Part shown: in pieces, positions 10,044 to 18,893 of the stretch | How the letters are laid out: each line of letters opens with the position of its first letter | Position numbering within the stretch: position 1 is the first letter of the stretch | NCBI GenBank assembly: GCA_037074765.1 | Contig: JBAMDO010000007.1 | Span: 310,001 to 374,000, forward strand | Direction of reading: 5' to 3' | Length of the DNA: 64,000 nt | Source of the DNA: Mansonella perstans | Lineage: Eukaryota; Nematoda; Chromadorea; Rhabditida; Onchocercidae | Program-made: the position numbers and the translations under genes | Notes under the pieces: generated by a model | Told to the model about the DNA's origin: nothing | Database searches by the model: none | Seen by the model: the letters and a program-made list of their open reading frames with translations, nothing else

Positions 10044-11690
10044 ATGGTAATTAGATTCATATCAAATGTTATCAGTCCACCAGTGATGTTATATATGGGT
10101 GTTGACAAGTTTGAAAATGAAAATTTGATAAGGTAAAGATTTGTCGAAGTAATGTTATGCTTGGAAGCCTTATGTAAATTGCTGATTTTATTTGTAATAT
10201 TGAGTGAGTGCAGATACTAAATAATCAAATAAAAGTGATTTTACTACGTCCAGCTAATGTAAAACTTGGTAGCAAGTTTGAATATATATTAAAAACTTAT
10301 AGAGAAAAATTATGGAAGAATTATAGAAATTTATGTAGTCATTTTTAGGTGGGGTTGGCCCGAAGATGTTTGGTTTCATGTTGACAAAGTATCATCTGCA
10401 CATGTGTATGCTCGTCTACCTTCGGGACAAACGATCGATGATATGCCTGAAGCTTTAGTTGAAGATTGCGCTCAGTTGGTGAAAGCTAATAGCATCCAGG
10501 TCCTATTTAAATGTGAAAATGCAGTGCTCTTTTACTTCTGTTTTCTGAAGAAAACAATCTTGACTGGAAAGTATTCAAAATTTTAAATTAGCATTTACAA
10601 GAGTTCTAAATGCTAGAGAAGTTTCATTTCTTTTCAGGGAAATAAAATGAACAACGTCGACATAATTTATACTCCTTGGGATAATTTGAAGAAAACAGGC
10701 AATATGGATGTTGGACAGATTGGTTTTAAGGATGAAAAAAAAGTTAAAAAAGTGATTTTTTCTTGAAAAAATAAAATGCTATTAAGTTACGTGCATAGGT
10801 TTTGTGTTGGTGTGACAATGACTTACTAAATACGTCCTTAAAAAATCTGTGATATCATGTACCTTTTTGGTCCTCTGTTGACAAATAATTTTGAAATTTA
10901 ATAGATCTGATATTCTTTGAGATTGTTTTTATATCTGACTAACTTTTTTTTTCTCTATTTTTGTAACTGCTTATGCTTTAGCTTAATACTCCTTTTAAAG
11001 TTATACATAGCATTTCACGTTTCTGTTTGATTCGTTGCTTACGTTCTGTGGATTAAATCTTTGGAATTTCCAGATACGTATCGCGAAGCGCATGAATGAT
11101 ATTGTAAACAGGTTAAACAAGACTGAAGTACGCGTGGATATTGATTATCGAATTGAAAAAGAAGAGAGAGATGCAAAAGAGCGTCAAATTAAGGTAATAT
11201 GAATTATAGGTACAAGGTTTAGTAGATTTTGTCGAATCCTTAAAATTCTAGTTGAAACATTTGTTGTAAGGTTCCTAAGGTTTAATTTAATTACTTGTCA
11301 GTTTCTGTTAGTTCTGGTGGTCAAAAGTCACAATCGTACTTAACAGAAATGTACTAAATTAAATGTATATTTTTTTTTTTTTTTCTTGAGACGTATTATC
11401 TTAGAAATGGATCTATGATTTGATTTACAGGGCTTTAAGAACAATAATTTCGAATGACATGTCGACCGATTACTAGGTATAAATTGATCATTTCTGATCT
11501 GCTCGTTGGAGTCCATAATTTCTTGAACTTCTTTTAGAAACAAAAGCAACGCGAACTGAAAGAGACTGAAAAAGCTGAAATGGAAAGAAGAGAAAAAGAG
11601 CGCCAAATGCGTTCCTATGATGGTGTTTTTTGCGATGAAAAGATGCATTCGAATCATGATGGTGGTAACGATTCCGATGGTTTCATGTAA
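10044..11690 (+). CDS. CCDC25: CCDC25 orthologue (NFACT-R domain, coiled coil)
   Basis: Five exons (10044-10132, 10349-10499, 10638-10751, 11074-11193, 11538-11690) give 208 residues, the same length as human CCDC25. The protein opens with MVIRFISN, keeps [33 protein letters not shown] and [15 protein letters not shown] of the NFACT-R domain, and [20 protein letters not shown], then a highly charged Lys/Glu/Arg coiled coil (about 120-185), ending NDSDGFM much like the human GNDSDEFM. The family is conserved in eukaryotes and resembles the RNA-binding part of NEMF/Tae2; in mammals CCDC25 is reported as a membrane sensor of extracellular-trap DNA. What it does in worms cannot be read from the sequence. 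An acceptor lies directly before the ATG (TTTGCAG). Confidence 0.93.
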
Positions 11691-11986
11691 ATGAATAGTG
11701 ACTTCCTTCTTGTTTTTCATGGCTGACTGATTCTGGCTATCATTAATTTATTCTGGCTTTTTACTTTTTTGTAGTACTTATATTTCTTTCTATTAGTTGA
11801 TAATACTGGAAGGTGGTTGTTCTTCTGATGTTAATGTAGTTTGTAAACTGAAGCAATTTGTAATTTGCAGACATTGTTAAATTTAAAAGAATTTTCTATT
11901 CATTACTTTGTACTATCATCAACAACGATATATCTACACTGTGTTTAATTCTGGAATAAAAACAGTAATGAAGCGTTTCTTGCTTA

Positions 11987-14900
11987 TCAGTTTCTTTTAT
12001 CAGCTATTAATTCGGTGATTATTCTTGTTGTTAACATAATTATGTGATTACTTTCATATTCAATGTAATATGGCATTAAGTCACGAACAATTTCGTTAAA
12101 AGTTGGTCGATCTACAGGCTGCTTTCGCCAGCATTGTAAAATAATGTTGTAGATGTAATAAGGCATCGACGATGGTTTCTCCATCCGATGATTGTCTAAA
12201 ATTTTTTTGAAGATGAAATCAAGCTCAATTTGACCAAAAAAAGGAAGAAAGAGAGTTCGCTGAATAATAACTACTCTGAATCAAACTTATATCAGTTGAT
12301 GATTTTGTTCCAGTTCGTGTTTCGTGGCGTCATAGAGTTATTGATGAACTTATTTCGGAATAAGGCACCTTTCAGGAAAGATAACACTTTTTCGTTCGGT
12401 AGCATTCCATATGGATCAATGACACCGTAAGTTTCGGTAGCGAGTATCGCATATGCCCACACATCTGATTTGGTGCTTAGCTCTCGACGATGTAACACTT
12501 CTGGTGGCAACCATTTGAAACTGCAATGCAGTACAGCCAGATGTGATCAAAATTTCATCGGTAAATGATTGTACTGAATTACATATTTCGTAAATCGCTC
12601 CATAACTTACGGCATTTTTTGCGGGTCGTCGGGGAGAAAGTGCACTTCGTGACGAGTCGTTTTTGATAAACCGAAGTCACTTATTTTTAACAAATATCTG
12701 TAAGGCCAGAATTTTTAGTCCAGTAAGGTTCATATAATGCTTGATACATTAGTTAATGTCACTTCCGCAGTTGTGAAGTAGACTAGAATTGCATGGTAAA
12801 AATACCACCAACAGACCTTGTTTTGTCTTTCGGGTGATGATAAATTAGAACGTTACGCGCTGCCAGGTCCCCGTGCACAATTGGAGGATCCATTGAGTGA
12901 AGGTGTGCCATACCACGCGCTATTTGTGTGAGGAAATCAATGTGTTCATTTGCCGATATATTATATTCATGTACCTGCCATATATTCTAATTCATTCTCC
13001 TAATTAAACGGTGATCGCAAAATTTTTCGAGAATTGAAAAAATCCCGCATCACATGCCAAGATCTATGTGGCCAATACCTAAATTTATATATTTACTGCA
13101 GACTCAAAACTTAGAACTGATGAAGTAAAACCTTCATGAAGTCAGCTAACGACCCAATATCCGTAAGTTCGAATGCGAGCATTACATACTCTTTCGTTTC
13201 ATCGTAACAAAAGCCGTAGAAGTTCGTCACATTTGGATGGCTGACTACCTGAAATTAGTTACCTGATCTGTTTGATAAGCTATAGAAACTATAGGTGATC
13301 GTTCTTACCACTTCTTGTTCTTCCAGTTTCTTTGGGAACTTTTTTTTATCCTTTGTGCCAACATTTCCTTTTTACCCCTAATCATTGAATTTAAATGTTT
13401 GTTCCATTTATAGTTTTCGAGCCAAAGTGTCCTTATATGGCTTTAGCAAGTGTTTGGGTTTAAATTTAGTTTCTAAGTTTCAAATTTGCAATAAATTGCC
13501 TGCAAAATTTCGATTTCAGAAATCCATGATTCTTGATGACCCGCGTCAGATGCAGTTATTTTCAATTTTTTAATAGCAACATTTACCTGAGAGTATTTTA
13601 TTTTCACGTTTGTAAAAATATTTTGATTGCCAAAAAAACATTGAAAATCGGATCAGAACGAAACAAAGGTTTCGTAGATTTATGAACTCAAATCTTTCTC
13701 AGAACCCAGTTTAAATTATTGTAACACATTACCTTATTTGCAAAAAGATTTTTCCGTTATTGTGCTATCCGGCAACAGACGATCAACATCGTCCCTAAAC
13801 TTAATGCGGGTTTCAAAATAACTCATTACCTCGCCATCAACTGTTTCTAACTTGCCACGATATACTGCACCGAATGCTCCGGATCCGAGTATGTCTTCTG
13901 ACGAATATTTCTATAATTCAAAAGCTGAAAGTCTTTAAAATTATGCAAAGTTTCCCAAAGTTTTCAATTAAATTTGCAATAAAGAATAGCAATATTTGAA
14001 AAACTGTTTTGTCATGCAGGAAGACGGATATTCCTAGGCAGCTCAGGAGAATGACGCCACGAAGTGTGCACCAAATTTGAAACATCAATTTCGATGGCAG
14101 CATTTGTTTTCAGCACTGCGTCATCAGTTGTTCTCGGATCAGGAGTTGGTTCCTAAAAAAATGCTTTTTTTGGTAAAAAAGGGAATGGTACATTATATTC
14201 AATAACATAATGACAAAAAAAAATTCGAGAAATGGTATCAGATAAAAGATTTCCCAGTGACTTTTGTTACCATATGATTGAGAAAAACCTGACTAGAAAG
14301 CAGAAAATAAAGAGAACATAACCGGATTTCGCTTTCCTGAAAACCATTTCCGGGGAGAAAGTACTAAAATTAAAGAAATTATCCCGAAAAGTTGGATTAT
14401 TGGAGGTAAAATTAGGAAACCTTAACGGGTCCCGCACTTTCTTTTGACTTTTTTTCTTGCTTCAAGTGACTTCGAGCTGTTTCAATAATATCATTACTAA
14501 GTTGTGCAGAATGAGCGAATTCCATGTGGGACTTATCGTAAGGATCGAAAACAGAACGAGAAATATACGAGAATGTTTGCGACAGAAGTTGCGGTTCTGT
14601 TATCTGAAATAAGATACTCAAACTAACCTATAATTTAGTGTTAATTTAGTAGCAACCAGAAAAACGCGAAAACAGTACTGTTTTAGGAATTTTCCATTGA
14701 AAAAAATTAGACGTTTCTCGAATCAAGTACCAGAAGGATACCTGATCGAAATACCGAGCTGCCCATTGTTCACTTTGCATCGTCATTGCATGAATGTCGC
14801 GAGTTGGTGAAGTAAACGGTGCTGGGACACTGTGGAAATGAACAAATTGCTGCTGAACAAAGACGATATTATAGAAAATCAAATACAACTGAATTTATTC

Positions 14901-17900
14901 ACTGTAAAAAATCGTGAAAAGTTTAAATACGTAAGCTTATAAGCAAATAATCACGTATATAATCCGAATTTCAAGCTATTGAAGTCTTAATCGTATATTT
15001 ATGATTTAATCGCTTAATTTCCTAAAATTAAAACTCGATATTCAAATAATAAATTGATCTCGGCATTTAATAATGCAATACCTCCGCAAGAAGTAGTGCT
15101 TGATGTAAGTGAATTCAACATTTGCTCATTACTGACCTCTTTTGTAGGGCCATAACTGAGTTTGTGTGGAATTGGTGACTGGTAATTTGTGTAGTAATAA
15201 ACTAAATCGTAGAGTGTTGAGAATTGTCGATTAAACAACAAGTAACGTCCAATTCGACTACGACGTATTGTGTAAGTCTAAACGACATTGATTTATCCAA
15301 ACTGTTTAATAATAAGTACCTACCTGGACACTTAATCAAGCAGCTACCTATGTTAATTGTCTTCATAATTCATTTCAATGATACAAATCCTGTTTAAAAC
15401 ACATGTGCCTACACAGATATATTGTTTATTTATTCTTTACTGCAAGAATTAAGTGCGATAAGTTTAAATGCATTGCTGAAATAATAATCGTTAAACACAT
15501 TTAGATGAAGCATTATTCTAAGGAAAATTTTTATATATTTTCAAATTAGACTCAAAATCCGGTACCTTTATGTAAAATGGCGATGATGTATGTTCTATAG
15601 GCTCTAGATCGATATCTTCCTTTCCGGACTTGTTCTCATCTTTATGCTCTTGTTCAAATGGTTCCTGTAATTTCATTTTGTTAGGTGATACTTAAGTTTT
15701 GGTTTCAGAATCAACTGAAAGCTATAAAACGATCAACTTTTAAAAGATTGCTTAAGCTAAGTTAAATGAGATACTAAACTGGCAGAAAAATACGCTGTGC
15801 AGCACCTTGGTCACTTTTTGATGGCTAGGTGATGCTGAGACATTTCCAGGTATCATTTTCGTTGATGCATCCTTCTTTGAATTATCGTTCTGAAAATTGT
15901 TGGACATCTTGCTTTGATCAGTACACTTGTTCCTTCTTGATATGAATGATCTGACTACTAAACTTTATATGTATCCGCGAAAAATAAATAACAGCGTACT
16001 AGCGTGCGATTGTCGCTTTATGTGCACCAAATTACGTTCCAAATCATTTTACACTCTATATTAGACTTTAGCCTAATGTTAAATGATTTGGATGTGAATA
16101 ATTTGTGGGGTTACAAATACTAGATTTTAATACGCTAGATACTTGACTCTAGCACGAAATAAGGGACAGTAAGTAGGCTTTAATTTGTAGAACTCAATAA
16201 CTTAAGTGCTTTTCGCGGCGTCATATTTGCTGTCAGTTCTTCCAGTTATTTTCAAATTTGATGCAGGCTAAATTGGAATAGTAGAACTAATTTATTTCAA
16301 GATTAAATGATTTCCATCAGAAATAAATCCCAAATTCGTGATGTAGTTGATTGGTACTGGAAGATCTAGGAACTGATTTGAGCCAGAAAACGGCGGAATG
16401 GAATGTTCAGCAGGGGAATGTTTTCAGTTAGGAAAATAAGTGGTAAAAAAATGAGGATGTTTTACGATTATGAATTTAATAGTTTTCGTCATGAAGATTC
16501 CATTAGCATACGCCTATGTAACAGCTTAATTTAATGGAATGTATAATAAAACAATGAAAGGAGCAATTACTTGAACTTTAGGTATTTACATCTAAAATTT
16601 TGCTTGGCAATATTATGTCAAGAATCAGAAGCAAAGAAAAAGGTTAGGCAACGTTTACAATATTTCTGTTGATCAAGAACCCGAACAATTAGGATATGCA
16701 TGCTTTTCTTAGTTCTCATTGTAAAATGATAAGTTAACCTGTTGTAAACCAGTTTTCGCTTGATCTTCCACAGTAGAAGGACGAAGAACGGAAATCATGT
16801 GTGTATTCAAATCAATCAGAGCTCCCTTTGCTGCTAAAATGTTATTGTTTTTAATTAAATTTTCTCAGCATTCATTAGATTTCAAACTGTCTAGAAAATG
16901 ATATCAAGTTTTTTCATCACAACAATGGTTATAACAACAGTACTCTGTTGTTATAACTTTCGTTTTTAATATCAGTTTATGGATATTTGGTCATATTTAA
17001 CCTGTAATTTGTTTCTCATAAGTTCTTATCATCTCACTCAAAATACTGTTGCTTTTGGAACACATAACAAGAATCATATAAGGACGGTGATCACGAGCAT
17101 CGATATTAAGCCAAACTGGTGAGAAGATGACAAATAATCCTCAAACAAAATTCATTAATTCTATGTAGCAGAAAATAAAAAATTGGAGTCAGGCATTTAA
17201 ATTCAAATAATCAGTCAAAAAATCGTTCAATCATTCAAAAAATTTTTCACCTGGCCTGTAAGAGCTACGGTCTTCCAAGAGATATTCATAAGCAGTGCTA
17301 AGATCAGAGATTCCCAAAAACCATGTTGGATGAACAAATAATCTTTTATTTGCTGAAATATATTAGAAACCTATCCAATTAGAGAAGGTAATTGAATTAG
17401 TTGAACTTGAGTAAACAGTAGTAATAATTATGAAATGTAAATTTCACCATCATAGAAACTCTTCTTGATAAGCCAACAAGATGGTATCAACCCGATATTT
17501 GATTTAAACGATCGCCTTCTAATCCACCTACCCAATGACCATTGCATTGGGAGTCGTAAAAATGTTCGACCGTCTGATGTTACGCTATCAATTTTACGAA
17601 CTCTGAATGTTTCATTTGCCCATTTAATTATTAGCAAAAACTCTGTTTACTTAAATATATATTTGTCTTTTAGTGTGGATCATTTTTCAAAATATTAATT
17701 ATAGGAACTAACGTACCACTCAGCGTCTGATGGATTTAGATACTACCTTTTCTCAGAAGTTAAACTCTTGAAAATGTAACGGTTTTTGACCGCTGTGCTA
17801 TGCATTTTCGCTACGACTTTTTATGGTGGAAAATGTATAAGGAGAGAGAATGCATTCGAAAATCACTGGAATTCTTCGCAAAGTACGTTGATTTGATCTC

Positions 17901-18893
17901 CTGCTATACAATTGATATCCAGGCATGATGTACCACCGAAATAATCCCAAAGTGCGATATGTGGTATCTAAGATATTCAATAAGCGAGCGGAAAAGTAAT
18001 GAGTGGCGTATTTACAATGTTGCAGAGACTATCACAAGAGCCAGTGATAGTCTCTGCAACGAAACTAAATTGTTTAAAATAATTGAATGCTTACTGGTTT
18101 CTTCAAGGCTTTCAAACTCCGAATAGAGAGAATCTGTATGGTATCTCTGAACAGAGCTTTCTCGGTTTTTATTTTGACTAAATTTACAGAAAAGTCATAT
18201 GTCTCAAACTTATATTTCTAAGAATTACGTTTGTGATAATGCAAAGGGAAAATATTTACCTGAATTGGGTTTGCTTTGATCCCTTTCAATTTTTGCCACC
18301 ATGGAAGATCTTGTACATTCAGATTAAAATTCGCGGCTTTGTCGAATGTTTTGAAGAGCAGATCATCTCTTAACGGAAGACCATTTGTATCTAAGCCAAA
18401 TCTATAACTGATAAGGCTCTGCTGAATAAGCCCAATAAATTTCAGACTTTTTCGAATCTTTCCTACAACTCAAAATTTCTTTTAGCTGAAGCTAGAAGGG
18501 CTCATAAATGATTACTGACAATTTCTTCAGAAAATAATATGAAAAGTAAAAAAAATCATAGCACAATGGTGTTTGTTTACTGAATAGATTTTTCTGCAAG
18601 CATGAATTTTTCCATTTATTTACTTAATCGAAAGTCATGGTATAATTTAAAAATTATAGAAAAGTCAATATTTAAATTGTAACGAACTTATAAAGCCTCT
18701 GAGTAAATTCAGCATCATTCATATATAATGCATCCGTATCATGTTCGTCACCAATTGCGCATTCGGGATCGTTAGAGTATATTGATGAAAGATCGGATAC
18801 ATTGTCTAACTTATCATTGATACGATAAATAGCATTCGATGGAAGCAGAAATGTATCATCTTGAGCAAGGAAATATTCTTCCGTATTAGACAT
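11987..18893 (-). CDS. Divergent SH3-SH2-tyrosine kinase with degenerate, interrupted SH2
   Basis: About 22 exons from 18893 to 11987 encode roughly 875 residues. Exons: 18893-18688, 18401-18260, 18146-18095, 18053-18016, 17967-17867, 17602-17448, 17352-17251, 17115-17002, 16833-16739, 15889-15806, 15664-15566, 15277-15137, 14852-14742, 14603-14421, 14152-about 14035, 13910-13830, 13586-13500, 13248-13132, 12974-12817, 12697-12611, 12520-12369, 12195-11987. After an acidic N-terminus come SH3 (about 147-225; [19 protein letters not shown]), SH2 (about 238-443; [16 protein letters not shown] to [20 protein letters not shown]) and kinase (about 585-870; [31 protein letters not shown]). The FLVR arginine is absent and about 100 residues are inserted in the SH2; HRD is HGD. 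All other catalytic residues are kept. The layout is that of Src/Abl/Csk kinases but I cannot name an orthologue. The end of the 14152 exon is unresolved. Confidence 0.85.
18019..18060. repeat. Perfect 17-bp inverted repeat over a kinase mini-exon
   Basis: Arms 18019-18035 and 18044-18060 are exact reverse complements (GTTGCAGAGACTATCAC) with an 8-base loop. On the minus strand the upstream arm contains the CAG acceptor and the start of the 38-base exon 18053-18016, and the downstream arm covers its 3' half, so the pre-mRNA would fold with its splice acceptor inside the stem. Confidence 0.9.

Follow-up and report, generated by a model that had tools for sequence, protein, structure and literature searches.

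We describe here a tyrosine kinase gene of the nematode Mansonella perstans whose SH2-like domain carries a phenylalanine (Phe) at the place of the FLVR arginine (Arg) and is split by a long insert. The gene lies on a 64,000-nucleotide stretch of contig JBAMDO010000007.1 (310,001-374,000; this whole stretch is called the window, and all coordinates below are window positions). It appears to belong to a nematode SH3-SH2-kinase family in which the SH2 has probably given up FLVR-pocket recognition of phosphotyrosine and acts as a phosphotyrosine-independent scaffold. This proposal is built on sequence, conservation and predicted fold, from which we infer binding, regulation and cell location; the domain layout would make the protein cytoplasmic. 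According to passages of PMC7530234, the FLVR Arg is kept in all but 3 of more than 120 human SH2 domains. An animal lineage would here have retained a rare Arg-less SH2 inside a Src-like kinase, with its predicted fold conserved and its pocket rebuilt, providing a natural experiment on the role of a kinase SH2 to which the usual mode of phosphotyrosine recognition is closed.

The gene occupies 18893-11987 of the minus strand and comprises 20 coding exons specifying 842 residues. They encode an SH3-like domain, the insert-split SH2-like domain, a helical linker and a tyrosine kinase domain that is intact in appearance. All phases agree, no internal stop is present, and the protein can be aligned over its length with isoform e of Brugia malayi Bm6151 (P0001, 847 residues). 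The boundaries of the SH3 exon, the start of exon 8 and the start of the kinase exon were set from orthologues. Eighteen introns are GT-AG and the one after exon 15 is GC-AG, its donor at 13500 being the sole GC donor among the 19 introns. This intron and the single GAG acceptor (exon 6) are what could be expected of a pseudogene or an assembly artefact, but the uninterrupted reading frame across 20 exons in consistent phase, the existence of orthologues in many species and the fact that the non-kinase part matches only this place in the genome make such an explanation barely credible. Matches to P0001 outside this locus were confined to its kinase part (residues 556 onwards). The features of the gene are as follows.

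11987..18893, minus strand: whole gene, ATG at 18893 and stop TGA at 11989-11987; consistent phases and alignment with Brugia P0001.
17867..17967, minus strand: exon 3, first part of the SH3-like domain (ends VLCEEF); gene model, with the fold of orthologue P0037 matching SH3 structures.
17448..17602, minus strand: exon 4, second part of the SH3-like domain (QVRKIDS...GLIPSCWL); acceptor picked from orthologues with EEFQVR or EEYQVR.
17251..17352, minus strand: exon 5, SH2 betaA and alphaA (ends RPG); gene model and predicted fold.
17002..17139, minus strand: exon 6, SH2 betaB (FVIF), BC loop, betaC and start of the insert helix; 138 nt, phase 1-1, acceptor GAG.
17125-17123 and 17086-17084, minus strand: exon 6 codons of Phe betaB5 and of the invariant Arg254; gene model and orthologue alignment.
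16739..16833, minus strand: exon 7, CD-loop insert, end of the predicted helix; gene model and predicted fold.
15806..15889, minus strand: exon 8, CD-loop insert, polar; a stretch without counterpart in some orthologues (P0002, P0005).
15566..15664, minus strand: exon 9, CD-loop insert, polar, its end reaching betaD; gene model and predicted fold.
15137..15277, minus strand: exon 10, SH2 betaD to alphaB (ends LYDLVYYY); gene model, sequence matches and predicted fold.
14072..14852, minus strand: exons 11-13, SH2-kinase linker with predicted helices; gene model and predicted fold.
12065..13910, minus strand: exons 14-20 (part), tyrosine kinase domain with HGDLAARN and DFG; Pfam PK_Tyr_Ser-Thr at 5e-69 on the draft spliced protein, and catalytic residues.

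The original prediction had placed an SH2 start in exon 17352-17251 and an SH2 end in exon 15277-15137, and both are present. It had also read VWLNID where FLVR should stand. The absence of Arg at this position was borne out, Phe being encoded there, while the VWLNID reading was not: betaB is present as FVIF. It comes from an acceptor 24 bases downstream of the true exon start, while exon 6 begins at 17139 (gtttgag|GATTATTTGTC), an acceptor supported by the orthologues that carry the exon. We rejected the exon start giving VWLNID because all 27 family members with this stretch read G-x-F-x-[IV]-F-S-P.

The same 27, out of 43 nematode family members found, all have Phe at betaB5; as a single species can contribute several entries (e.g., three of Acanthocheilonema viteae), they are not 27 independent cases. 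Among the other 16, 11 have the SH2 start without this stretch and five lack the SH2 start too (P0017, P0018, P0025, P0026, P0027). The conservation alignment left out P0017, P0026, P0027 and P0035 (4/43), and the stretch count covers all 43. In the 27 aligned rows (window plus 26), G236, F238, F241, S242, P243 and R254 never vary, N247 is shared by 26 rows, and position 249 holds Asp or Glu; Arg380 is invariant in 26/26 rows. Where a phosphate-binding BC loop would stand, the family has a longer conserved motif, FSPxWLNxDxxDxRP. With the register of contact positions taken from SH2 sequence alignments, alphaA2 is hydrophobic, betaD4 mostly T/S/V and betaD6 T/P rather than basic, the exceptions among the rows being one His and one Arg. 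Twenty-six SH2 places located elsewhere in this genome served as a control; betaB could be read in 22, all of which have the Arg (22/22), three others are second halves and one (C17:385488) gave no betaB reading. This control leans towards Arg, since the Pfam model that located the places rewards it. Judged from the encoded residues, phosphotyrosine binding via an FLVR Arg is impossible in this SH2, and with the other contacts mostly non-basic the domain would no longer bind phosphotyrosine in the usual way, as had been suggested at the outset.

The two SH2 halves are separated by 109 residues (265-373), 61% of them in DEKRHNQST. The codons of this insert lie in the 3' portion of exon 17139-17002 and in exons 16833-16739, 15889-15806 and 15664-15566. 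The polar linker noted earlier between the halves is real, but it is better described as a CD-loop insertion within one predicted folded domain. It is predicted to form a helix followed by a low-confidence tail, and it is weakly conserved. The betaC-betaD stretch measures 56-125 residues among members that have exon 6 and both halves, excluding P0037 (Panagrolaimus sp. JU765; 218 residues, duplicated), in whose annotated protein the part running from the insert to the SH2 end occurs twice. This duplication is probably an annotation or assembly artefact.

Orthologues were found in filariae, Thelazia, Setaria, Ascaris, Aphelenchoides, Panagrellus, Panagrolaimus, Steinernema, strongylids, Mesorhabditis and Caenorhabditis (C. 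briggsae, C. remanei, C. brenneri, C. tropicalis and C. angaria). No match carried the name C. elegans, from which a loss should not be concluded, since only candidates sharing short words entered the searches. In one of these searches no non-nematode match exceeded 51% query coverage, and those matches carry kinase domains. Both the Arg loss and the presence of the insert hold in the orthologues found and are therefore not the mis-prediction of one gene. Identity between the window protein and Brugia P0001 is 91% and 98% in the SH2 halves, 87% in the kinase and 52% in the insert; against C. brenneri P0036 the values are 43% and 41%, 45% and 15%. Both SH2 halves are conserved about as well as the kinase. 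A decaying, functionless SH2 remnant would account for the loss of most usual phosphotyrosine contacts and for the lack of a Pfam call, but this level of conservation, the many invariant residues and the conserved BC motif make it very unlikely.

The predicted fold follows the SH2 order betaA-alphaA-betaB-betaC-betaD...alphaB. The order SH3, SH2, kinase was recovered by combining the predicted fold of the kinase-less orthologue P0037, for SH3 and SH2, with Pfam, for the kinase. In Foldseek the best matches of P0037 were the SH3-SH2 parts of Hck and Fyn. By sequence search it was essentially the C-terminal SH2 half that matched Src-family SH2s (best E 0.035 and 0.017), which is insufficient alone. 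The SH3 was insignificant by sequence profile (best SH3 E 0.45); a designed repeat protein that matched at 1.4e-4 in the same profile search was taken as chance repeat scoring. A VIA structure comparison with the full P0001 model returned mostly kinase-only rows (RET, ACK1, SYK, MET, FGFR); three Fes rows extend into the SH2 region with a root-mean-square deviation (rmsd) of about 20 and are no gauge of the SH2. In NCBIfam, P0001 had only sub-cut-off kinase matches and P0037 none.

Several observations weigh against a phosphotyrosine-independent SH2 scaffold of this fold. The P0037 model has a mean predicted local distance difference test (pLDDT) score of 59.7 and a predicted template modelling score of 0.47, and it carries the duplicated stretch, so that the structure match partly uses the second copy. 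The match to Hck has template modelling scores of 0.13/0.33 and an rmsd of 8.9 and therefore supports domain order more than packing. The BC loop falls under a pLDDT of 50 at 246-252. The Pfam SH2 model (PF00017) reached 16.9 of the 21 bits of its cut-off on a version without the insert, gave no match at all on the draft protein with the insert, and matched 2 of 15 family members (best E 0.017); because Pfam makes no call, this SH2 is easily overlooked. At the pocket itself, P0028 carries Arg at betaD4, and the invariant Arg254, just before betaC, could form a new anionic pocket together with Arg380. Finally, the loss of the HRD Arg in the kinase may change little, by analogy with Drosophila Src64 R403C.

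The two arginines raise the question of whether the SH2 still binds phosphotyrosine or another phosphate, with the relocated Arg254 and Arg380 (betaD) replacing the FLVR Arg. They are invariant in 27/27 and 26/26 rows, respectively, and the C-terminal SH2 of p120RasGAP offers a precedent for the use of other residues, as given in passages of PMC7530234. However, the basic positions that p120RasGAP uses, betaD4 and betaD6, are mostly non-basic in this family, and Arg380 lies three residues past betaD6. We consider such retained phosphate binding unlikely, even if Arg254 could serve an anionic ligand. In the scaffold model that we favor, the SH2 would pack against the SH3, the linker and the kinase; alternatively, it might bind a partner that is unphosphorylated or acidic, in the manner of JAK SH2s. 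The insert, with its predicted helix and a flexible arm of lineage-specific length, may add a docking or spacing role.

In the kinase domain, the VAIK Lys, alphaC Glu, HxD Asp, Asn, DFG Asp and AAR motif are all in the gene model, and the catalytic residues are retained in the aligned members save for gapped rows and P0037. The kinase looks catalytically competent. HRD reads HGD (HGDLAARN in the window) in 23 of the 24 aligned members with a kinase and HAD in the remaining one. The activation-loop Tyr is absent from the window and the filarial members seen and present in strongylids, Caenorhabditis, Aphelenchoides and Panagrellus; the window protein accordingly has neither the activation-loop Tyr nor the HRD Arg looked for in a Src-module kinase. 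With both gone, control of the kinase probably does not run through the usual phosphotyrosine steps either. Passages of PMC3223231 report that replacing the HRD Arg by Cys in Drosophila Src64 (R403C) had little effect and that c-Src with Ala at this position kept 10% on a foreign substrate; HGD therefore need not mean a loss of activity. The best 60 of 848 sequence matches of the kinase were scattered (an EGFR tandem construct, a Src-Abl ancestor, TYK2, RET, FGFR) and therefore no kinase family was assigned.

The annotations differ in whether they include exon 6. In 11 of the 43 members, all filarial or other spirurid, the SH2 start is present and exon 6 is missing in frame, and in Brugia malayi isoform e (P0001) has the exon while isoform c (P0010) does not. 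Skipping this 138-nt, phase 1-1 exon, whose GAG acceptor stands alone among 19 that otherwise read CAG or TAG, would remove betaB and betaC and yield a kinase without a folded SH2, as if the FVIF exon were a regulated cassette. However, exon 15 is missing as well from no fewer than 9 of the 11; it encodes the catalytic VAIK Lys and, in the window, is followed by the GC donor. Several of the 11 lack further pieces, and only P0006 clearly drops exon 6 yet keeps exon 15. This is typical of gene finders at unusual splice sites, and such a failure is no worse an explanation of the missing exons than a regulated switch. The splice switch is therefore just a weak hint, and we regard a regulated cassette as improbable. 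A broader scenario would have a nematode-wide family dropping phosphotyrosine reading twice (SH2 Arg to Phe and HRD to HGD), gaining a ligand site from the new BC motif and Arg254, and in filariae removing the SH2 core by exon skipping. Taken as a whole it seems rather unlikely, the more so because the annotations that skip exon 6 mostly skip exon 15 too.

SH2D5 is an adaptor and RIN2 an exchange factor, neither of them known as a kinase, and JAKs possess FERM and pseudokinase domains. The JAK layout was not found here, as Pfam gives one kinase stretch and no FERM among the matches. By analogy with the JAK and TYK2 SH2s, the domain is most likely a phosphotyrosine-independent scaffold or regulator. 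Passages of PMC7530234 describe the JAK family, with TYK2 (His at the FLVR position), as having a tyrosine kinase SH2 that likewise works without recognition of phosphotyrosine by an FLVR Arg. The same source gives the human SH2s of SH2D5 and RIN2, where the FLVR Arg is also replaced (by Trp and His, versus Phe here), and the Legionella LeSH SH2, which also has a large loop insert, but in the EF loop and with the FLVR Arg retained, whereas here it is the CD loop (PMC7530234). The Src-module kinases (Src, Abl, Tec, Csk) have the same order of SH3, SH2 and kinase in the passages of PMC8662651 that treat them. In contrast to them, the nematode family has Phe for the FLVR Arg, a 56-125-residue CD loop, a long helical SH2-kinase linker, HGD in place of HRD and, in the filarial members seen, no activation-loop Tyr. 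Other passages of that paper list KIN6 and KIN16 as nematode-specific tyrosine kinase families (PMC8662651). In the openly licensed literature, no paper with Bm6151 or CBG05171 (the C. briggsae orthologue) was found and none was recognized as describing this family, and passages of a Haemonchus kinome paper (PMC4672506) do not single it out.

Two further parts of the protein lack a domain assignment in Pfam. The linker (14852-14072) has predicted helices and conserved residues (EQWAARHFDQ...) and no convincing Pfam match; it is possibly an undescribed small domain. The N-terminal ~116 residues (18893-18260) are common to the family and gave only a sub-cut-off Pfam match to Sda (E 0.042).

Within the introns of the kinase gene, a perfect 17-bp inverted repeat with an 8-nt loop lies at 18019-18060 (intron 2), and its arm occurs only once elsewhere in the genome, with one mismatch. 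An Rfam scan of the window, this hairpin included, gave 0 matches at the gathering score. Two more hairpins, both imperfect, are found at 16921-16964 and 16038-16092. A convergent neighbor gene at 10293-11700 on the plus strand contains an NFACT-R_1 domain (E 1.2e-13) together with an open frame that is charged and coiled-coil-like, and presumably resembles CCDC25.
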